Positions 39,536 to 54,686 of a stretch of DNA of 64,000 nt are shown here, piece after piece. Numbering within the stretch: the first letter of the stretch is position 1; each line of letters opens with the position of its first letter. The stretch spans positions 637,301 to 701,300 of the forward strand of contig JAEPQD010000001.1 of assembly GCA_017642695.1 (NCBI GenBank), given 5' to 3'. Under the pieces are notes generated by a model that saw only the letters and a list, made by a program, of their open reading frames with translations, was not told the DNA's origin and did not search any database. The stretch is from Parvibaculum sp. GTDB lineage: Bacteria; Pseudomonadota; Alphaproteobacteria; Parvibaculales; Parvibaculaceae. The position numbers were made by a program, and so were the translations under genes.

Positions 39536-40945
39536 ATGACCACGATAGACGACCGCGTCGCCATGCGCTGGCTGCGCCGCAACTTTCTTGCCGGACGCGT
39601 CATGCCGGGCGATCCGAGCGGACAGGTGCGGCTTCAGACGCTCGTGATCCTGCGCTGGCTTGCGATTGCCGGTCAGCTCGTCGCCGTGCTTCTCGTGCAT
39701 TTCATGCTGGGATTTCCGCTTCCGCTGGGCCTGTGCCTCGCCGTTATCGCGGCCTCGGCCTGGCTCAATGTGTTCCTCACGCTCCGGTATCGTTCGGCGA
39801 CGCGGCTTCCGGACTGGCAGGCAGCGGTCTATCTCGCCATCGATCTCGCGCAGCTCGCCGTGCTCCTCTTTCTGACCGGTGGTCTGCAGAATCCCTTCGC
39901 ACTTCTCTTCATGGCGCCGGTAACGATCTCCGCCACGACGCTGTCGCTCGCGAGTACCGGGCTCCTGCTGGTGCAGGCCTTGACCTATGTAACGCTTCTC
40001 GCGTGGTTCCACATGCCGCTGCCGTGGCGGCCGGGCGAGACGCCCGAGCTCCCTTCGCTGTATGTGACGGGTCACTGGCTGGCTTTGATGCTTGGCCTCG
40101 GCTTCATGGCCGCCTATGCCTGGCGCGTCTCGCAGGAATCGCGGCGCATGTCTGCAGCGCTCTCCGCGACGCAGCTGGTACTCGCACGCGCTCAACGCCT
40201 CTCCGCACTGGACGGGCTTGCCGCCGCCGCCGCGCACGAACTCGGTACGCCGCTCGGCACGATCTCTCTTGTTTCCAAGGAACTCCTGCGCGGCAAGATG
40301 AGCGACGAGGAAATGAAGGAAGATCTCGTGCTGCTTAACAGCCAGGCCGAGCGCTGCAAGGACATTCTCTCGCGCCTCTCTCGCCAGCCGGACGGCACCG
40401 ACGCCATCTATTCACGGCTTCCGCTGCATGGGTTGCTGGACGAGGTTGTTGCGCCGCATCGCGACATGGATGTCACCTTTCTCATTGAAACGACGACAGA
40501 CGATGATGACGCCGCAGAACCCGAAATCTGGCGCCGTCCGGAAATGCTCTACGGGCTCGGCAATTTCATCGAGAATGCTGCCGACTTCGCGCGCGACGAG
40601 GTTTCGGTCGCCGCCCACTACGGAAAGACTCACGTTACCGTAACCATCATCGACGACGGGCCGGGTTTCTCGCCCGACGTGCTCGAAAAGCTGGGTGAGC
40701 CCTACGTTACGACGCGGCCGCGCAGCAAGCGGGCAAGCGCTGACTCCGACAGCGGCCACGAGGGAATGGGACTCGGTTTCTTCATCGGCAAGACATTGCT
40801 GGAGCGCACGGGCGCAAACGTGTCTATTGCGAATCGGGCTGATGGCAAGGCAGGGGCGCAGATCACCGTTCGCTGGCCGCGCCGTGCCATTGAGGCCGAT
40901 CCGGCCTTCCCGCCCGAACCGCTGACGGCGCCGGCGGCGGAATGA
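39536..40945 (+). CDS. regB: Redox-sensing histidine kinase RegB/PrrB/ActS
   Basis: A 469-residue sensor kinase with about six membrane helices (residues 35-195). The ubiquinone-binding signature GGLQNPF is at 115-121. The phospho-accepting His234 is in AAAHELGTPLG, and the redox-active Cys274 is in QAERCKDIL; spacing matches Rhodobacter RegB (H225, C265). The HATPase domain has NFIENAADFA and GMGLGFFIGKTLLERTGA. It senses quinone redox state and phosphorylates RegA, controlling respiration, carbon and nitrogen metabolism. It is followed by regA. Confidence 0.94.
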   Translation: MTTIDDRVAMRWLRRNFLAGRVMPGDPSGQVRLQTLVILRWLAIAGQLVAVLLVHFMLGFPLPLGLCLAVIAASAWLNVFLTLRYRSATRLPDWQAAVYLAIDLAQLAVLLFLTGGLQNPFALLFMAPVTISATTLSLASTGLLLVQALTYVTLLAWFHMPLPWRPGETPELPSLYVTGHWLALMLGLGFMAAYAWRVSQESRRMSAALSATQLVLARAQRLSALDGLAAAAAHELGTPLGTISLVSKELLRGKMSDEEMKEDLVLLNSQAERCKDILSRLSRQPDGTDAIYSRLPLHGLLDEVVAPHRDMDVTFLIETTTDDDDAAEPEIWRRPEMLYGLGNFIENAADFARDEVSVAAHYGKTHVTVTIIDDGPGFSPDVLEKLGEPYVTTRPRSKRASADSDSGHEGMGLGFFIGKTLLERTGANVSIANRADGKAGAQITVRWPRRAIEADPAFPPEPLTAPAAE

Positions 40946-41014
40946 CGAGACGCTGCTTGGCTTTGAAGGAGGCTTCGGCCTAAAATTGCGCAATTCCGAC
41001 GGAGATTGGATCAC

Positions 41015-41587
41015 GTGACCAGAACTGCCGACATGCCAGAGGGTGAAAGCCCTGCCATTCCCGAGGACCGCACGCTTCTCCTCGTCGATGACGATGTCCC
41101 GTTCCTGACGCGACTCGCGCGCGCGATGGAGGGCCGTGGTTTCGACGTGACGACGGCGAACACGGTGAAGGACGGCAAGGATCTTGCTCGGGCGAAGAAG
41201 CCGGGTTTCGCGGTCGTCGATATGCGCCTTGAGGACGGAAACGGCCTCGATGTTGTGGCGACGCTGGAAGAAGTGCGTCCCGATGCGCGCATCGTGGTGC
41301 TGACCGGCTATGGCAACATCGCCACCGCCGTGACGGCCGTAAAGCTCGGCGCGGTCGATTATCTCGCCAAGCCTTCCGATGCCGATCAGATCGAGGCGGC
41401 GCTTCTCGCGACCGGCGGCGACAAGGCCGGTCCACCGGAAAATCCGATGTCGGCGGACCGTGTGCGCTGGGAGCACATTCAGCGAGTCTACGAGCTTTGT
41501 GATCGCAACGTCTCGGAAACGGCGCGTCGTCTCAACATGCACCGCCGTACGCTTCAGCGCATTCTCGCGAAACGCGCGCCGAAATAA
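41015..41587 (+). CDS. regA: Response regulator RegA/PrrA/ActR
   Basis: About 190 residues. The receiver domain has LLLVDDDVPF and phospho-Asp69 in VVDMRLEDGNGL. A Pro-containing linker leads to the C-terminal Fis-type helix-turn-helix VRWEHIQRVYELCDRNVSETARRLNMHRRTLQRIL, which is very conserved in this family. The start is uncertain: GTG 41015, TTG 41006 and ATG 41033 are in frame; GGAG lies 10 bases before the GTG. It forms a two-gene operon with regB and converges with mmcB, 1 base between the stops. Confidence 0.94.
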   Translation: MTRTADMPEGESPAIPEDRTLLLVDDDVPFLTRLARAMEGRGFDVTTANTVKDGKDLARAKKPGFAVVDMRLEDGNGLDVVATLEEVRPDARIVVLTGYGNIATAVTAVKLGAVDYLAKPSDADQIEAALLATGGDKAGPPENPMSADRVRWEHIQRVYELCDRNVSETARRLNMHRRTLQRILAKRAPK

Positions 41588-43082: not shown

Positions 43083-44204
43083 CTATTCCGCCGCCACGCT
43101 TTGCATCGGATTCTTCTTGGCGAAGTTTACCGTCTTCAGGAATTCGATTCCCTGTTCGGCGATGTCGTCGCCGACCATGCGATCGTCTTCGTTCTTCAGT
43201 TCTTCCATATCGACATAGGTCGCATAGAAGGCACGGGTGCGTTCCGTGATGATGCCGGCCTTGAGCAGCGTCTTCACCAGCACGCGGAAGACGTTCGCCG
43301 CGTCCTTCATGCCCTCGCGCCGGTCTTCGTCCGTCACGGCTTCCAGCATCTCGGCTTGCACTTTCTGCCAGTCGAGGCCGAAATCGGCATAGATCAGTTT
43401 CTTCTGTTCCGGGTTCACGAGATTGAAGAGCAGGGTCTGGAAAACGGCAGCCGCCCAGTCCTCGATGATGTCGCGTTCTTCCTGGGAGAGTTTCGGGATC
43501 GTGCGGTCGGCCCAGATCTTTCCGAACTTGTGGTGGAACGCCTCGTCCGTCATCGCGAGCTGGCAGAGCTTCACGAGCAGCGGATCGCGCGCCGTATTGA
43601 AGAAGGTCGCGAAAGTCCCCATCGCAAGTCCTTCGACGAGCAGCTGCATGCCGACGATCTTCTTGTAGACCTCCTTGGCGTTGACCATTTCGGAGAGGAG
43701 GTTCGCCAGCGTCTCGCCGCAGGGCAGCGGCTTGCCGAAGCGCGATTGCACGTATTTCGCGAAAGCCGTCACGTGGCGGGCCTCTTCGCGCGCCTGGTTC
43801 GCGGCATATTCCTGTGCGCCGGGATCGAGCAGGATGTGGCAGAGCGAGGCCGAAAGATTGAGCGCACCCTGCTCGCCATGCAGGATCGCCGACATCATCC
43901 AGCGCGCCGTCTCGTTGACGAAGCGGACCTTCTCCTTTTCGGAAAGCTTTTCGAAGCTGGGGAGCTTCAGTTCCGGCACGAGCTCCGGATCGATCATCAT
44001 CTCGTTTTCTCTGTCGAAGGGCTCGGAGAAATCGATATAGCGCTTGTCGAGCGGGTCCCAGAAATGGTCGTGGGTCGCGGAAATGATCTTGTCGAATGCC
44101 GATGAGCGCCGGTTATAGCGCTCGGTATTCATCATCGCCTGGAAGTCGTCCGGTGCGACGGCGTCATAGGCATTGTCCTTGGTGATCTGGCGTGTGGCCG
44201 TCAT
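43083..44204 (-). CDS. Diiron ferritin-like protein, copy 1
   Basis: A 373-residue soluble all-helical protein. It carries the full carboxylate-bridged diiron ligand set: E111 (LHGEQGALN), E141-x-x-H144 (REEARHVTA), E191 (LLVEGLAMG) and E221-x-x-H224 (TDEAFHH). This is the ferritin/ribonucleotide-reductase-like fold used for O2 activation (RNR R2, AurF, hydroxylases). I recognise the fold, not a named enzyme. The starting segment RQITKDNAYDAVAPDDF is shared with its paralogue at 47416-48549 across the CYP153 gene. GGAG supports ATG 44204. A TGACG-N4-CGTCA operator lies upstream, and a strong terminator downstream. Confidence 0.8.
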   Translation of the reverse strand: MTATRQITKDNAYDAVAPDDFQAMMNTERYNRRSSAFDKIISATHDHFWDPLDKRYIDFSEPFDRENEMMIDPELVPELKLPSFEKLSEKEKVRFVNETARWMMSAILHGEQGALNLSASLCHILLDPGAQEYAANQAREEARHVTAFAKYVQSRFGKPLPCGETLANLLSEMVNAKEVYKKIVGMQLLVEGLAMGTFATFFNTARDPLLVKLCQLAMTDEAFHHKFGKIWADRTIPKLSQEERDIIEDWAAAVFQTLLFNLVNPEQKKLIYADFGLDWQKVQAEMLEAVTDEDRREGMKDAANVFRVLVKTLLKAGIITERTRAFYATYVDMEELKNEDDRMVGDDIAEQGIEFLKTVNFAKKNPMQSVAAE

Positions 44205-44267: not shown

Positions 44268-44282
44268 TTGTGCGGCGCACAA
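44268..44282. promoter_or_regulatory. 15-base palindrome next to operator site A
   Basis: TTGTGC-GGC-GCACAA is a perfect palindrome 8 bases from operator A, in the position where the spacer of the diiron-gene promoter is expected. Confidence 0.4.
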
Positions 44283-44290
44283 GCAATGTA

Positions 44291-44312
44291 AAAGTGACGC
44301 CTGCGTCATTTT
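44291..44312. promoter_or_regulatory. Operator site A (TGACG-N4-CGTCA)
   Basis: The core TGACG-CCTG-CGTCA has AAAG on the left and TTTT on the right, one mismatch in the flanks. It lies between the first diiron gene (minus) and the Hsp70-like gene (plus). On the minus strand a TTGCTT follows at the same distance as the -35 boxes at sites C and D. Confidence 0.65.
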
Positions 44313-44496
44313 GCGCAGGGCGCTGGAAATCGCCGGAAATGGGGCCCCGGACTCGACAAGAGGGCCGTTCGCCTGTATTTCTCGCCGCCCTTTCGCCCCG
44401 GGATCCGCGTATCCGGCTCCCGGATTTCCTCACATGTATTGCTGTGACCGGCGCTTCGGTTCGCGTGCCGGTCAGACGGATACGAGGTGCTATCCC

Positions 44497-45810
44497 ATGT
44501 TTATCGGTCTCGACTTCGGGACGACCAACAGCGCGCTGGCGGTCGCCTCCCCGGAAGGCGCGTCCCGGCTTGTCCCGGTGCGTCACGGTAGCGAAACGCT
44601 TTCGACCTTTCGCTCCATTCTCTATTTCGACGATGATGAGCGCGACGCGAACGGGCGTCCGCACGCCTTCGCCGGTCCCGCGGCGATGGACGCCTATCTG
44701 GAACGGGGCGCCGAAGGCCGTCTCATCCAGTCGGTGAAGTCCTATCTCGCCAACCCGAACTTTACCTCGACCAGCATCTTCAACAGCCGCTTCACGCTCG
44801 AAAATCTTGTCGGCTTCATCGTTGCGCGCATGATCGATGCGAGCGAGGAAGCGGACACGCTGACGGCTGAAATGCTGAAAAGCCCTGTCGTCGTCGGCCG
44901 TCCCGCGCGTTTCGTGCGCAACAGCCTCGGCACGCCGGACAGCGAACATGACGAACTCGCCGTGTCGCGGCTTAGCGCGGCGCTTCACGGCATTCGCATT
45001 CCCGATGTGCATTTCGAGTTCGAGCCTGTCGCCGCCGCCCATGCCTACGAAACGTCGCTCGACCGCGACGAGCTCGTGCTGATCGGCGATTTCGGTGGCG
45101 GCACCTCCGACTTCTGCCTGCTTCATGTCGGTCCCGGCATGCGCAAGCTGAGGGCGCGCGGCGAAACGATTGTCGGCGTGTCGGGCGTCGGGCTCGCGGG
45201 TGATGCGTTCGATGCGCGCCTCATTGAGCATTGTGTGGCGCCGCGCCTCGGCAAGGGCACGAATTACCGCAGCGGCACCAAGGTGCTCCCCGTTCCCTCC
45301 TGGCCTTACGACACGATGAAGCGCCGGCATGAATTGAGCCTCATCAACACGCGCAGGACCCGCCGCATGCTCGAGGAAATTCGTCAGACGGCGGAAGCGG
45401 CGGACGAGGTGGAAGGCCTGGCGCATCTGATCGGGGAGGAGCGCGGCTTCGCGCTTTATCGTGCCGTCGAGGCGGCGAAGGTGGACCTCTCCGCCTCGGA
45501 GGCCGCGCGGCTGCGCTTCGAGGTCGGCCCGGTGGCTATCGATGCACCGGTGAGACGCGCGGACTTCGAGCAGTGGATCGCGCCGGAACTTGCCGAAATC
45601 TCGGCCTGCGTGGAAGGCCTTCTGGAAGAAACCGGAACCGCGCCGGAGACGGTAGACAAGGTATTCCTCACCGGCGGCTCCTCCTTCATTCCCGCTGTTC
45701 GCGGGATATTCGCCTCTCGTTTCGGACACGAAAAGATATCGGGCGGCGGCGAGCTGACCTCCGTGGCGACCGGTCTTGCCCTGGCCGCCAGGCAGCGTTT
45801 CGGCGACTGA
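44497..45810 (+). CDS. Hsp70-like ATPase (YegD type)
   Basis: A 437-residue protein with an actin/Hsp70 nucleotide-binding domain but no separate substrate-binding domain, like E. coli YegD. The phosphate-1 loop is GLDFGTTNSALAV (4-16), phosphate-2 GDFGGGTSDF (197-206), and the adenosine motif VFLTGGSSFIPAVRGIF near the C-terminus. It may be a specialised chaperone. Its position between the first diiron gene and the CYP153 gene suggests a role in folding or assembly of these metalloenzymes, but this is inference. ATG 44497 gives the standard N-terminus; the long upstream frame is not used. Confidence 0.85.
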   Translation: MFIGLDFGTTNSALAVASPEGASRLVPVRHGSETLSTFRSILYFDDDERDANGRPHAFAGPAAMDAYLERGAEGRLIQSVKSYLANPNFTSTSIFNSRFTLENLVGFIVARMIDASEEADTLTAEMLKSPVVVGRPARFVRNSLGTPDSEHDELAVSRLSAALHGIRIPDVHFEFEPVAAAHAYETSLDRDELVLIGDFGGGTSDFCLLHVGPGMRKLRARGETIVGVSGVGLAGDAFDARLIEHCVAPRLGKGTNYRSGTKVLPVPSWPYDTMKRRHELSLINTRRTRRMLEEIRQTAEAADEVEGLAHLIGEERGFALYRAVEAAKVDLSASEAARLRFEVGPVAIDAPVRRADFEQWIAPELAEISACVEGLLEETGTAPETVDKVFLTGGSSFIPAVRGIFASRFGHEKISGGGELTSVATGLALAARQRFGD

Positions 45811-45841
45811 CCGGGGGTCGGGGGAGGCAAATTGCCGCCTA

Positions 45842-45863
45842 AAAATGACGCCTCCGTCATTTT
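45842..45863. promoter_or_regulatory. Operator site B (TGACG-N4-CGTCA)
   Basis: AAAATGACG-CCTC-CGTCATTTT is a perfect 22-base interrupted palindrome 31 bases after the Hsp70-like stop and 57 bases upstream of site C. A TTGCCA follows 11 bases after its end arm, but the matching -10 is poor, so it is probably an auxiliary site for the CYP153 promoter. Confidence 0.75.
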
Positions 45864-45898
45864 CAAACGATTGCCATGGTGCTAAGCTCGGTCACATA

Positions 45899-45920
45899 AA
45901 AATGACGCGGCCGTCATTTT
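45899..45920. promoter_or_regulatory. Operator site C (TGACG-N4-CGTCA)
   Basis: AAAATGACG-CGGC-CGTCATTTT is a perfect 22-base interrupted palindrome. It ends 5 bases before the TGACG of the CYP153 -35 element, the same arrangement as site D at the second diiron gene. Confidence 0.8.
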
Positions 45921-45924
45921 ACGT

Positions 45925-45952
45925 ATGACGGCTCCGTGTTTTCCGGTATGCT
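45925..45952 (+). promoter_or_regulatory. CYP153 promoter
   Basis: A -35 ATGACG (45925-45930), a 16-base spacer, and -10 TATGCT (45947-45952). The predicted transcript starts near 45959, leaving a leader of about 28 bases with GGAGG before ATG 45987. The operator lies directly upstream of the -35, a typical activator position. Confidence 0.65.
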
Positions 45953-45986
45953 TGACGCAACGGAATCTCAGAACCGGAGGAAACCC

Positions 45987-47258
45987 ATGAGCGACGCAGC
46001 GGTAAAATATGAAGCCGACGAAGCGCGCGACGCAGCCTACTCGACTCCACTGGAGGAGATCGATGTCGCCGATCCGCTTCTCTTCAAGAACAACACGATG
46101 TGGCCCTACTTCGAGCGGCTCCGCAGCGAAGCGCCCGTGCATTACTGCACGAAGAACGAGGAAGCCGGTCCCTACTGGTCGGTGACGCGCTACAAGGACA
46201 TCATGGCGGTCGATACCAACCACCAGGTGTTTTCGTCCGAGGGCGGAATAACGCTCCGCGATCAGGACGAGGACTTCAAGCTGCCGATGTTCATCGCGAT
46301 GGATCCGCCGAAGCATGACGAGCAGCGCAAGACCGTGAGCCCCATCGTGGCGCCGGCGAACCTCGCCAAGCTCGAAGGCACGATCCGCGAGCGTGCGGGC
46401 AACATTCTCGACAGCCTGCCCGAAGGCAAGCCCTTCAACTGGGTCGACAAGGTGTCGATCGAATTGACGACGCAGATGCTTGCGACGCTGTTCGACTTCC
46501 CCTTCGAGGAACGCCGCAAGCTGACGCGCTGGTCCGACGTTGCGACCGCGTCGGAAGATTCCGGCATCATCGAGTCGGAAGAAGCGCGGCGCGCCGAACT
46601 TCTCGAATGCGCCGACTACTTCATCGGCCTCTGGAACGAACGTGTGAATGCGAAGGAGCCGGGCAACGACCTGATCTCCATGCTCGCGCATGGCGAGTCG
46701 ACGCGGAACATGGACAAGATGGAGTATCTCGGAAACCTGATCCTCCTCATCGTCGGCGGCAACGACACCACCCGCAACTCGATCTCGGGCGGTCTGCTGG
46801 CGCTCAACCAGTTCCCGGACCAGTACGCGAAGCTGCAGGCGAACCCCTCCGTCATTCCGAACATGGTGGCGGAAATCATCCGCTGGCAGACGCCGCTGGC
46901 TTACATGCGCCGGACTGCCCTGGAAGACACGGAGATTTCGGGCACGAAGATCGCCAAGGGCGACAAGGTTGCGATGTGGTACGTCTCGGGCAACCGCGAT
47001 GAGACGGTCATCGAGAACCCGAACGAACTCGTGATCGACCGCGACCGCGCGCGCCAGCATCTCTCCTTCGGCTTCGGCATCCACCGCTGCGTGGGCAACC
47101 GTCTCGCCGAGATGCAGCTCCGCATCATCTGGGAAGAGATACTGAAGCGCTGGCCCGACAAGCAGATCAAGGTTCTCTCCGAGCCGCGCCGCGTTCACTC
47201 GTCCTTCGTGAAGGGCTATGAGGAACTCATGGTCGAAGTGCCGAAGCGCTCGCACTGA
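45987..47258 (+). CDS. CYP153-family cytochrome P450 (alkane/fatty acid terminal hydroxylase)
   Basis: A 423-residue soluble bacterial P450. The I-helix oxygen motif is GGNDTT (257-262), ExxR is EIIR (296-299), and the heme-thiolate loop FGFGIHRCVGNR has Cys368. Segments such as MFIAMDPPKHDEQRKTVSPIV and PLAYMRRTALEDTEI match what I know of CYP153, which hydroxylates the terminal methyl of medium-chain alkanes and related molecules. It needs a ferredoxin and a reductase, neither of which is encoded nearby. ATG 45987 follows GGAGG and the promoter; an open frame to 45936 runs into the promoter. It has its own terminator. Confidence 0.92.
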   Translation: MSDAAVKYEADEARDAAYSTPLEEIDVADPLLFKNNTMWPYFERLRSEAPVHYCTKNEEAGPYWSVTRYKDIMAVDTNHQVFSSEGGITLRDQDEDFKLPMFIAMDPPKHDEQRKTVSPIVAPANLAKLEGTIRERAGNILDSLPEGKPFNWVDKVSIELTTQMLATLFDFPFEERRKLTRWSDVATASEDSGIIESEEARRAELLECADYFIGLWNERVNAKEPGNDLISMLAHGESTRNMDKMEYLGNLILLIVGGNDTTRNSISGGLLALNQFPDQYAKLQANPSVIPNMVAEIIRWQTPLAYMRRTALEDTEISGTKIAKGDKVAMWYVSGNRDETVIENPNELVIDRDRARQHLSFGFGIHRCVGNRLAEMQLRIIWEEILKRWPDKQIKVLSEPRRVHSSFVKGYEELMVEVPKRSH

Positions 47259-47282
47259 GAACGCAAAGATCGCAAACGATTT

Positions 47283-47325
47283 GAGGCCGGGCTGGAGAAA
47301 TCCACGCCCGGCCTCGATCTTTTCG
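47283..47325 (+). terminator. CYP153 terminator
   Basis: The stem GAGGCCGGGC (47283-47292) and GCCCGGCCTC (47306-47315) has a 13-base loop and is followed by GATCTTTT. Confidence 0.8.
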
Positions 47326-47332
47326 TGACGAG

Positions 47333-47362
47333 AAAAAAGGGCGGCACCCGAAGGTGCCGCCC
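47333..47362 (-). terminator. Terminator of second diiron gene
   Basis: A perfect 10-bp stem, GGGCGGCACC (47339-47348) and GGTGCCGCCC (47353-47362), with a CGAA loop. Six T residues follow on the minus strand (47333-47338). It may also back up termination from the CYP153 side. Confidence 0.88.
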
Positions 47363-47415
47363 AATTTGTTCGAGGATCGAGTTGAGGGAACTCTGCTCCT
47401 GACGCGTTACGCTAC

Positions 47416-48549
47416 TTACTCCGCCGCTGAGACGCTGACATCCTTCAGCGCGTCGACATTGGTGCCGAAATTGATCTTCTGCAGATAGCGGATGCCGTCT
47501 TCGGCGATGTCGTCGCCGACCATGCGGTCGCCTTCGCTCTTCAGCTCTTCCATGTCGACATAGGTCGCATAGAAGGCCTTGGTGCGGTCGGTGATGATGC
47601 CGGCTTTGAGAAGCGTCTTGATGAGCACGCGGAAGATGTTCGTGCCTTCCTTCATCGCTTCGCGGCGGTCGTCGTCACCAAAGGCTTCGAGCATCTCGAG
47701 CTGAACCTGCTGCCAGTCGAGGCCGAACTCGCCATAGATGACCTGCTTCTGCTCGGGATTCACGAGGTTGAACAGCAGCGTCTGGAAGCACTCGGCCGCC
47801 CAGTCTTCGATGATGTTCTGCTCTTCTTCCGAGAGGTTCGGGATCGTGCGGTCCGCCCAGATCTTGCCGAACTTGTGATGGAAGGCTTCGTCCGTCATGA
47901 CGAGCTGCGTGAGCTTCACCAGCAGCGGATCGTTCGACTTCGCATAAAGCGTTGCGAAGGCGCCCATCGCGAGACCTTCGACCAGCATCTGCATGCCGAC
48001 GATCTTCTTGTAGACCTCCGGCGCGCCGACGATGTTGGTCAGCAGGCCGCCCAGCGTCGTGCCGACGGCGAGGGGCTTGCCCCAGCGCGCCTGCACATAC
48101 TTCGCGAAGGCGGTGACGTGACGCGCTTCTTCGCGGGTCTGGTTCGCCGCATATTCCTGGGCGCCCGGATCGCGGAGAATGTGGCAGAGCGAGGCCGAGA
48201 GGTTCAGCGCACCCTGTTCGCCATGGAGGATCGAGGAGAGCGCCCAGCGCGCGCTCTCATTCGCGAGCTTCACCTGGGCCTTCTTGTCGAGAGCCTGCAC
48301 GCAGGGGAGCTTCAGTTCCGGAACCATCTCTTCCGGCATGATCATCTGGTTTTCGAGATCGAAGGGCTCGGTGAAGTCGATGTACTTCTTGTCCAGCGGA
48401 TCCCAGAAATGGTCGTGGGTCGCGGAGATGATCTTGTCGAAGGCGGTGGAGCGCGCATTGTAGCGGTCCACTTCCATCATCGCGGGAAAATCGTCCGGCG
48501 CGACGGCGTCATAGGCATTGTCTTTGGTGATCTGCCGAATCTCGGTCAT
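47416..48549 (-). CDS. Diiron ferritin-like protein, copy 2
   Basis: A 377-residue paralogue of the protein at 43083-44204, alike over its whole length (by eye about three quarters of residues identical). It has the same diiron ligands at identical positions: E111, E141-x-x-H144, E191 and E221-x-x-H224. They differ mostly at residues 66-100 and 161-176 and at the C-terminus. Diiron O2-activating chemistry is expected; the substrate is unknown. It has a strong terminator, and a promoter with operator site D that is built exactly like the CYP153 promoter, so co-induction with the P450 is likely. Confidence 0.8.
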   Translation of the reverse strand: MTEIRQITKDNAYDAVAPDDFPAMMEVDRYNARSTAFDKIISATHDHFWDPLDKKYIDFTEPFDLENQMIMPEEMVPELKLPCVQALDKKAQVKLANESARWALSSILHGEQGALNLSASLCHILRDPGAQEYAANQTREEARHVTAFAKYVQARWGKPLAVGTTLGGLLTNIVGAPEVYKKIVGMQMLVEGLAMGAFATLYAKSNDPLLVKLTQLVMTDEAFHHKFGKIWADRTIPNLSEEEQNIIEDWAAECFQTLLFNLVNPEQKQVIYGEFGLDWQQVQLEMLEAFGDDDRREAMKEGTNIFRVLIKTLLKAGIITDRTKAFYATYVDMEELKSEGDRMVGDDIAEDGIRYLQKINFGTNVDALKDVSVSAAE

Positions 48550-48651
48550 CGGGTCCTCCAGAATGTCGGGCCGGCGCGGCTGCCGGAACTCGCGGGGCGC
48601 CGGTCTTCGAGAGGCAATGTGCCTCCCTGCCGGTCTGTCTGTTTGGCGTCG

Positions 48652-48679
48652 AGAATAGGGGGCGCCCCCGCAGCGTCAA
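48652..48679 (-). promoter_or_regulatory. Promoter of second diiron gene
   Basis: A minus-strand -35 TTGACG (48674-48679), a 16-base spacer, and -10 TATTCT (48652-48657). Transcription should start near 48645. Confidence 0.7.
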
Positions 48680-48682
48680 GAG

Positions 48683-48706
48683 AAAAATGACGACCCCGTC
48701 ATTTTT
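48683..48706. promoter_or_regulatory. Operator site D (TGACG-N4-CGTCA)
   Basis: AAAAATGACG-ACCC-CGTCATTTTT is a perfect 24-base interrupted palindrome. It covers about -38 to -61 of the second diiron gene's promoter. Nine bases separate its CGTCA arm from the TGACG of the -35, identical to site C. Confidence 0.82.
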
Positions 48707-53432: not shown

Positions 53433-54686
53433 CTACGCCTCAGGCGTGTAGCGCACCGGCATCTCCTTGATGCCGTAGATGAAGTTCGACCTGAGCCGCC
53501 GGATCGGTCCCGAGACGTGAATGTCGGGGAAGCGCTTCAGCAGTTCCTCGAAGAGAATGCGGAGCTGCAATTCGGCAAGCCGTGAGCCGAGGCAGAAATG
53601 CTGCCCCGCGCCGAAGCCGAGCTGGGTCGCCGTCTCGGGCGAGACATAGCGCGTCACGTCGAAGCGGTAGGGATCGTCCCATTTCGCCTCGTCGCGGTTC
53701 GCCGACGCGTACCACATCACGATCTTGTCGCCTTGTCTGATCTTCTGTCCGCGAAGCTCGGTGTCTTCCGTCGCGGTCCGGCGCATGTGAAGCACCGGGC
53801 TCACCCAGCGCACGATTTCCTGCACCGCGCTCGGAATGAGCGAGGGGTCGTCGAGAAGCTTCTGCCGCTCTTCCGGATTCTCGCTCAGCGCGAGCAGCCC
53901 GCCCGAAATCGAATTCCGCGTCGTCTCGTTGCCTGCGACGACGAGCAGGATGAAGGTGCCGATATAGGTCGGGAAACTCATCGCTTCGCCGCCGATCTTC
54001 GAATGGGCGAGCATGGAGATGAGATCGTCGCCGGGGTTCTCGAGCCGCTGCTGCCAGAGGCCTGCTGCATAGCCCGCCATCTCGCCGATGCACTGCTGCA
54101 TGTACTCGTCGGAGACGCGGAGTTCCGGATCGTCTTCGCCCACCGTCGCGTTCGACCATTCGAAGAGCTTCGGTCCGTCGCTCTCCGGCACGCCGAAAAG
54201 TTCCGCCAGCACCTCGATCGGGAGTGCAGCGGCAACCGCGGAAATGAACTCCGCCTCGCCCGTCTTCGGCAGATTGTCGAGAAGCCGCGTCACGCGCGCG
54301 CGGATGCGCTCTTCCATGTTGGAGATGCGGCGCGGCACGAAGCCCGGCGTCACCATGCGGCGGTAGCCCGCATGTTCCGGCGGGTCCATCGAGATCATGC
54401 TCGCGTCGGTGTCGTTCCCGTCGATGTCGTTTTCGTTGAAGATGCGGTGGCCGCCATTGTTCTTCGCCGAGGAAAAGAGTTTCGGGTTCTTCGAGATCGC
54501 CTCGATGTCGTCATAGCGCGTCACCGCCCAGAAACCCGAACTATCCGCTTCCGGATTCCAGTAGACGGGTTCTTCCGCGCGCAACCGCCGGAACACCTCG
54601 TGGTGTTCCTCGCGCATGTAGAGATCGGGGTCTTTCAGATCGGGCTTGCCGCCGAGATCGATCGCCTGCGCCTTGGGCCTGAGCAT
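53433..54686 (-). CDS. Cytochrome P450, non-CYP153
   Basis: A 417-residue soluble P450. The I-helix motif is AGNETT (251-256), ExxR EIVR (290-293), and the heme loop FGAGQHFCLGSRLAE has Cys365. Segments such as SMDPPEHAGYRRMVTPGF and the pattern LHMRRTATEDTEL resemble the CYP125/CYP142/CYP124/CYP108 neighbourhood, which oxidise sterol side chains, branched lipids or terpenes. Assignment to one family needs alignment. No redox partner is adjacent. It is 71 bases from the HAD gene start direction and transcribed from near 54700. Confidence 0.9.
   Translation of the reverse strand: MLRPKAQAIDLGGKPDLKDPDLYMREEHHEVFRRLRAEEPVYWNPEADSSGFWAVTRYDDIEAISKNPKLFSSAKNNGGHRIFNENDIDGNDTDASMISMDPPEHAGYRRMVTPGFVPRRISNMEERIRARVTRLLDNLPKTGEAEFISAVAAALPIEVLAELFGVPESDGPKLFEWSNATVGEDDPELRVSDEYMQQCIGEMAGYAAGLWQQRLENPGDDLISMLAHSKIGGEAMSFPTYIGTFILLVVAGNETTRNSISGGLLALSENPEERQKLLDDPSLIPSAVQEIVRWVSPVLHMRRTATEDTELRGQKIRQGDKIVMWYASANRDEAKWDDPYRFDVTRYVSPETATQLGFGAGQHFCLGSRLAELQLRILFEELLKRFPDIHVSGPIRRLRSNFIYGIKEMPVRYTPEA

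Follow-up and report, generated by a model that had tools for sequence, protein, structure and literature searches.

Palindromic putative operators upstream of CYP153 and diiron oxygenase-like genes in Parvibaculum and a candidate TetR-family regulator

The CYP153 enzymes are alkane hydroxylases of major importance and also serve as biocatalysts. In a 64,000-nucleotide stretch of a Parvibaculum sp. genome (the window; contig JAEPQD010000001.1 of assembly GCA_017642695.1, positions 637,301 to 701,300 of the forward strand), a gene for a CYP153-type cytochrome P450 lies close to two genes for diiron proteins, and four copies of an interrupted palindrome are located upstream of these genes. The question raised by this locus is which protein reads the palindromes and in which direction it acts on the genes. 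The motif, its conservation, the genes that it precedes and its co-occurrence with a TetR-family gene were computed. Judging from these comparisons, the palindromes are probably the operators of one TetR-family regulator, encoded in the same genome (G000) at positions 1203683-1204342 of contig C1.

The core motif TGACG-N4-CGTCA is found at positions 44295, 45846, 45903 and 48688, and these are the only exact copies in the window. The flanked form (AAATGACGN4CGTCATTT, that is, AAATGACG-N4-CGTCATTT) matched the same four places and no others when up to three mismatches were allowed. A mean of 0.16 such matches was expected in the window, and a count of four was reached in 0 of 100 window shuffles. 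The initial annotation had reported four interrupted palindromes, which are present as described, and had noticed no other copies in the window. The core with one mismatch occurs at six more places. Operator A (44292..44311, one mismatch) lies between diiron gene 1 and an Hsp70-like gene and is kept within the genus. Operators B (45843..45862) and C (45900..45919) are both upstream of CYP153; B, 33 bp past the Hsp70-like gene, is kept in several relatives, and C is conserved. Operator D (48685..48704) is upstream of diiron gene 2 and conserved at orthologues. No strand is assigned to any of the four.

Conservation and distribution of the palindrome

The flanked motif was found with at most one mismatch in 23 of the 27 genomes of the genus, and its reversed control in none (0/27). 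A comparison of the intergenic regions in relatives, proposed as a check by the initial annotation, showed that the site is conserved beside orthologues: 22 diiron2-type loci (at least 82% identical) were found, two cut before the start were dropped, and the operator was located upstream of the gene, with three mismatches or fewer, in all 20 loci with a complete start. The N4 spacer took 15 different forms across these 20 promoters. Across a set of 54 distinct sites, the information content was 1.7-2.0 bits at each position within the TGACG and CGTCA arms and fell to 0.05 bits at the two bases in the center, values that are biased upward because the set was selected by the motif itself (two mismatches or fewer). 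With arms and A/T flanks fixed and the N4 spacer free, the palindromes behave as putative operators.

Scanning the genome (3.62 Mb, 9 contigs), another check suggested at the outset, gave 12 exact core palindromes compared with three for the reversed control pattern. Flanked sites with one mismatch or fewer numbered four, all in the window cluster. Allowing two mismatches added further targets: one site precedes another diiron gene, the third paralogue (C2:412987, L019), one lies in the divergent region at a putidaredoxin-reductase-like gene (C1:791472, L007), 302 bp away from the start of the latter, and one is 30 bp ahead of an alpha/beta hydrolase gene (C2:225703, L018). The sites are selective, being present at three of the five close diiron paralogues in the genome (67-100% identical) and absent from two, and present at one of the six CYP153-like genes (43-100% identical); in the seven upstream stretches of the other five CYP153-like and two diiron genes, nothing was found within four mismatches. 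A second P450 gene in the window (53433-54686; 43% identical to the CYP153) has no operator within four mismatches upstream. One further genome match (L020) falls inside a coding region that resembles sortase by eye; this and the similar matches L249 and L250 stem from a conserved KNDD codon run and were regarded as coincidence. Two other TetR genes adjoin the sortase-region matches.

Beyond this genome, the site was met again in other families of Alphaproteobacteria, ahead of genes for CYP153, diiron proteins, flavin monooxygenases and ferredoxin reductases. It precedes ferredoxin reductase genes in Caulobacter (L061, 46% identity), Caulobacteraceae (L114, 48%) and Rhodobiaceae (L085, 65%), CYP153 in L108 and L321-L323 (64-65%), diiron genes in several other lineages and a flavin monooxygenase gene in L128; by genes named by eye, it also precedes a flavin monooxygenase in L329 and an acyl-CoA-dehydrogenase-like gene in L077, L122 and L338. 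The motif scan of the genome collection returned at least 117 stretches, and a regulon-type gene stood beside the site in 27 among the matches listed; about 60 of the other 90 listed stretches are outside Alphaproteobacteria and are likely chance.

Two further groups of sites were noticed. In small marine genomes, the operator stands before TolC-like or efflux membrane-fusion-like genes, named by eye (L073, L083, L098, L139, L332 and L335, and in the same group L102, L131, L133, L333 and L334), and the candidate TetR is encoded as well in four genomes of this kind that belong to family f49. In two Parvibaculum genomes, a good operator copy precedes a CCA tRNA nucleotidyltransferase-like gene (L247:1574 and L253:2179). 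A gene of this kind is the neighbor that adjoins the operator-bearing CYP153 of UBA6963 (L108), and because of this shared neighbor the two Parvibaculum sites may be a relic.

A candidate regulator and its rivals

No regulator of the TetR kind is encoded beside the four sites within the window. Regulator genes beside sites were scanned for by regular expressions at 59 alphaproteobacterial loci, leaving out L105; such patterns miss many proteins, and the LysR-type gene of L135 was not flagged by them. The scan gave one adjacency, a TetR gene of Rhizobium sp. AG18 divergent from a flavin monooxygenase gene, with two operators in the intergenic region, one exact and one with two mismatches. With the Rhizobium protein as query, 26 of the 27 genomes of the genus gave a single strong relative (E values no higher than 2.3e-23), far ahead of other TetR proteins at approximately 1e-10. 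In the present genome, this relative is the candidate (P0001), located approximately 520 kb from the cluster, in agreement with the proposal of the initial annotation that the regulator is encoded outside the window. The TetR_N domain (PF00440, cutoff 24) scored 62.2 bits in the candidate and 49.0 bits in the Rhizobium protein; no named NCBIfam family matched the candidate above its cutoff, and the best match to a solved structure had E = 3e-12. In addition, operator-like sites with one to three mismatches were located upstream of the TetR gene in all three TetR-bearing genomes of family f42 (L317, L308 and L318), where a hydrolase-like gene lies downstream. In an alignment of this TetR subfamily (A1), the DNA-binding domain is 59-97% identical and the remainder 15-91%. 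With the DNA-binding part conserved and the rest variable, the operator can be common while the signals differ. A highly conserved stretch of the DNA-binding part, RDIIRxTGLASGTFYNYF, was noted in this subfamily.

Co-occurrence was determined in 385 alphaproteobacterial genomes, which are not independent within families, counting sites with one mismatch or fewer. By single-sequence search, the TetR was found in 31 genomes, the motif in 34 and both in 14 (p = 1.1e-8). Using profile A1, the TetR was found in 44 genomes, and the site was present in 22 of these 44 but in 12 of the 341 TetR-negative genomes (p = 1.5e-15); counted the other way, 22 of the 34 genomes with a site had the TetR, compared with 22 of the 351 without one. 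Each of the 13 genomes that carry more than one site was TetR-positive. Co-occurrence held when the own family was excluded (p = 1e-12) and when counted by family label (11/19 versus 11/154, p = 4e-7), and the reversed control motif occurred in six genomes, none of which had the TetR. As a control protein, another, unrelated TetR of the genus (its gene beside the sortase-region match) was found in 13 genomes, five with the motif, four of these being of the own family. Outside the own family, the motif was present in one of eight control-TetR genomes, a small sample, compared with 10 of 26 candidate genomes in the same type of search.

The 22 TetR-positive genomes lacking a site within one mismatch contained 37 two-mismatch sites, compared with six control sites, and 15 of these genomes had at least one. 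At 15 two-mismatch loci examined by BLAST, a regulon-type gene was found in eight cases, and seven of these genes read away from the site within approximately 140 bp: diiron genes (L376 and L388), a Hyphomonas-type diiron gene (L378), CYP153-like genes (L379 and L383), a hydrolase gene (L381) and a flavin monooxygenase gene (L389). In the eighth case (L386, 34%), the gene is approximately 400 bp from the site.

Several observations weigh against the assignment of the sites to this TetR. Half of the TetR-positive genomes (22/44) have no site within one mismatch, and seven of these 22 have no two-mismatch site either. Conversely, 12 TetR-negative genomes have a site, one each, although chance, as judged from the six genomes with the control motif, accounts for part of them. 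Within the genus, genome G009 carries sites although its best TetR match, at E = 6.9e-10, is not a strong copy; this genome is 88% complete. No flanked site with three mismatches or fewer was found near the TetR gene at the 30 TetR loci of the genus, nor at 25 of the 28 loci from other genomes, so that adjacency of operator and TetR gene is the exception. The 26 rows of profile A1 came partly from hits of the single-sequence search. Outside the DNA-binding domain, the Rhizobium and Parvibaculum proteins share 15% identity, and the Rhizobium protein may therefore be a paralogue. Genes of other regulator families were also seen at sites by eye: in Asaia (L105:5767), the start of a LacI-type gene is 69 bp from the site, and in Hellea (L135:3104), the site lies within a LysR-type gene.

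These last two cases, together with the lack of any regulator gene seen beside the sites in Parvibaculum, where the links to TetR are comparative, are what would be expected if a different DNA-binding protein read the sites and the TetR were linked to them by lineage inheritance. We consider this unlikely, because the operator adjoins a TetR gene in two separate lineages (Rhizobium and f42), and because co-occurrence is retained when counted by family and when the own family is excluded, whereas the control TetR, in its small sample, has no such co-occurrence outside the own family. The palindromes might alternatively be hairpins (terminators) or a mobile repeat. AAAAATGACG-N4-CGTCATTTTT is able to fold, related stems were listed, the region has 12 terminator-like sites compared with 5.1 expected, and the position of site B just past the Hsp70-like gene would suit a terminator. 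Nevertheless, the sequence of the arms is fixed and no compensating changes are seen, which argues for a protein reader rather than a hairpin; sites A and D and those at diiron3 and the reductase gene lie between divergent gene starts, the spacing to the -35 is conserved, and the copies within one mismatch, four in number, are not spread genome-wide. Hairpins or repeats are thus highly improbable. The proposal of the initial annotation that one regulator is common to the P450 and both diiron genes is supported by the shared, conserved operator and is extended by the additional targets and the candidate TetR.

Two other types of reader were considered and set aside. A redox two-component pair of the RegB/RegA (ActS/ActR) type is encoded at 39536-41587 of the window, approximately 1.5 kb from the end of diiron gene 1, and was considered for its proximity; RegB/RegA has a degenerate binding consensus, and we found no evidence tying its site type to the palindrome. 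Readers of the CRP/FNR type have half-sites spaced as TGA-N6-TCA, which differs from the TGA-N8-TCA of the present motif.

Promoter geometry and mode of action

The layout given in the initial annotation for sites C and D was correct to the base: CGTCA, 9 bases, TGACG, 16 bases, and TATGCT (C) or TATTCT (D). The promoter-like sequence of CYP153 (-35 ATGACG, N16, -10 TATGCT; 45925..45952, plus strand) was aligned with orthologues, and in that of diiron gene 2 (-35 TTGACG, N16, -10 TATTCT; 48652..48679, minus strand) both the -35 and the -10 are conserved. At site A, TTGCTT is found at an equal distance, and the absence of a good -10 was likewise seen. At site C, the right arm and the -35 make up a further inverted repeat, GGCCGTCA-N9-TGACGGCT (45909-45933), and the CYP153 -35 region resembles a decayed second operator, 23 bp beyond site C.

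Among the 20 diiron2 orthologues, the gap from CGTCA to TTGAC is 8 nucleotides (nt) in 17 (two of them taken by reading the sequences, where the script gave an earlier TTGAC), 7 nt in two and 9 nt in one, and a TA-rich hexamer begins at 29-31 nt in 18, while operator and start codon are 79-146 apart. A set of 27 promoters (15 gene-by-family groups) was picked by hand, excluding those of ferredoxin reductase, hydrolase, TolC and fusion-protein genes, whose sites are too close to the start. In this set, the -10 signal was maximal at offset 29 (p = 0.006 by permutation). The highest -35 score fell at offset 0, within the T-rich flank, and a putative lesser peak was seen at 8. Near-exact spacing of operator and promoter was also seen at unrelated oxygenase genes, which fits activation. 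This spacing would place the operator center near -51, on a helix face usable for activation. A second geometry was found at ferredoxin reductase genes of other genera and at hydrolase and TolC-like genes, with 14-45 bp between the operator end and the start codon, for which repression is the simple interpretation; the Parvibaculum reductase site fits neither geometry.

We propose that a dimer of the candidate TetR binds the flanked palindrome before CYP153 and three diiron oxygenase-like genes as well as before the putidaredoxin-reductase-like and alpha/beta hydrolase genes, so that the whole set would be tuned jointly by a lipid-like signal such as an alkane, a fatty acid or an acyl-CoA. The preferred mode would be repression that the ligand lifts, which for the oxygenase promoters we favor somewhat over activation. 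The initial annotation had argued for activation from a site directly upstream of the -35 at weak promoters. The same TetR could activate the oxygenase promoters from a position approximately 51 bp ahead of the start, and the near-constant spacing in the diiron2 orthologues, the -10 peak at offset 29 and the lack of a good -35 or -10 in some promoters, including those of diiron1 and the Hyphomonas-type diiron gene, fit this mode. The argument from weak promoters is mixed, however, since the diiron2 orthologues retain good TTGACC and TATTCT elements, near consensus, for which activation is not obviously required. TetR proteins are mostly repressors, and the sites 14-45 bp from the start codon fit repression. 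Activation is thus not established, and we rate it as the less probable mode. A slightly more tentative possibility is that one TetR acts in both ways through one operator: it would activate the oxygenase genes from the fixed position approximately 51 bp ahead of the start, and repress the genes for redox partners, hydrolase and efflux, whose sites are near the start codon. Its conserved DNA-binding half would be coupled to sensor halves that change fast; if true, each group of Alphaproteobacteria could feed its own lipid-like signal into a common regulon.

Next to operator A, the diiron1 promoter contains a PhaR-like box, TGCGGCGCACAA / TGCGCCGCACAA, overlapping on both strands (44268..44282). 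The PhaR-type box TGCRNYGCASMA, for which the consensus was taken from the available part of PMC6201568, was found in all 12 Parvibaculum diiron1 promoters examined and was absent from three other regulon promoters checked. This hints at a possible link to polyhydroxybutyrate status.

Cluster genes and known systems

The P450 gene (45987..47258, plus strand) encodes a protein similar over its full length to CYP153A7 (3rwl; E = 2e-178 across residues 14-418); the CYP153 name goes by a rule of 40% identity. Diiron gene 1 (43083..44204, minus strand) encodes an AurF-like protein scoring 36.5 bits with PF11583 (AurF), above the gathering cutoff of 29.6, whereas diiron2 (25.3) and diiron3 (19.8) score below it, and for this reason the group is named AurF/R2-like and not AurF. 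The product of diiron gene 2 (47416..48549, minus strand) is an R2/AurF-like ferritin-fold carboxylate diiron protein. The features of ferritin-like carboxylate diiron proteins, two E...ExxH sets of metal ligands in a four-helix core, were found, and in the fold comparison AurF, R2 and R2lox were tied, with none favored. The Hsp70-like gene (44497..45810, plus strand), between sites A and B and perhaps a member of the regulon, stays between diiron1 and the P450 gene in many relatives and was not found there in G014/L062.

The analysis yields a candidate for the regulator gene, together with a precisely defined operator and a list of targets that selects one of six CYP153-like and three of five close diiron genes in this genome. 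Parvibaculum and its relatives carry several CYP153 copies, and no described regulator for these was found in the literature searched. Uncharacterized R2/AurF-like diiron proteins are tied to a P450 and a likely redox partner, which allows a guess at the diiron pathway, and a biosensor for hydrocarbons or lipids might be built on the pair of operator and regulator. The initial annotation had named the system its best candidate for an undescribed one, and no description was found in the literature searched, with subscription papers outside its scope: no paper turned up on the motif, or on Parvibaculum in connection with a regulon and the TetR family, no such system appeared in the titles and abstract openings among the matches listed, and the available part of PMC3281065 has nothing on such a system. 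Systems in which one TetR regulator acts through scattered operators are well known as a type; the present regulator and regulon appear to be undescribed in that literature.

Among known regulators, RutR has the operator TTGACCA-N2-TGGTCAA, which is like the present palindrome in its TGAC half-site and TGA-N8-TCA spacing. The candidate scores 29.8 and 29.5 bits with the RutR models NF011584 and TIGR03613, compared with cutoffs of 230 and 368, and the targets of RutR differ. Its best NCBIfam match is the TetR-type FadR of Bacillus (NF053878) with 52.3 bits, far under the cutoff of 200. FadP and PsrA, which regulate fatty-acid degradation, share with the candidate a TetR-type control of lipid catabolism through scattered operators; in the available part of the source no CYP153 or diiron targets are named for them, and of the classes studied there, Betaproteobacteria are described as the only one with FadP (PMC5343134). 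Control of CYP153 itself is known from CypR and related AraC-type activators in Alcanivorax borkumensis and Dietzia; these differ in family, and the actinobacterial genes are divergent from and beside the CYP153 cluster, in contrast to the TetR-type palindromic operator and distant regulator predicted here (PMC8784404, available part). According to the same part of that source, TetR-type control of alkB is apparently unique to Actinobacteria, where AlkX of Dietzia represses alkW1 with fatty acids given as the signal (PMC8784404). AlkX is thus like the candidate in being a TetR-family regulator of an alkane hydroxylase, and as described there it is set apart as an actinobacterial protein beside an alkB-type target, whereas the regulator proposed here would be unlinked to its CYP153 and diiron targets (PMC8784404).

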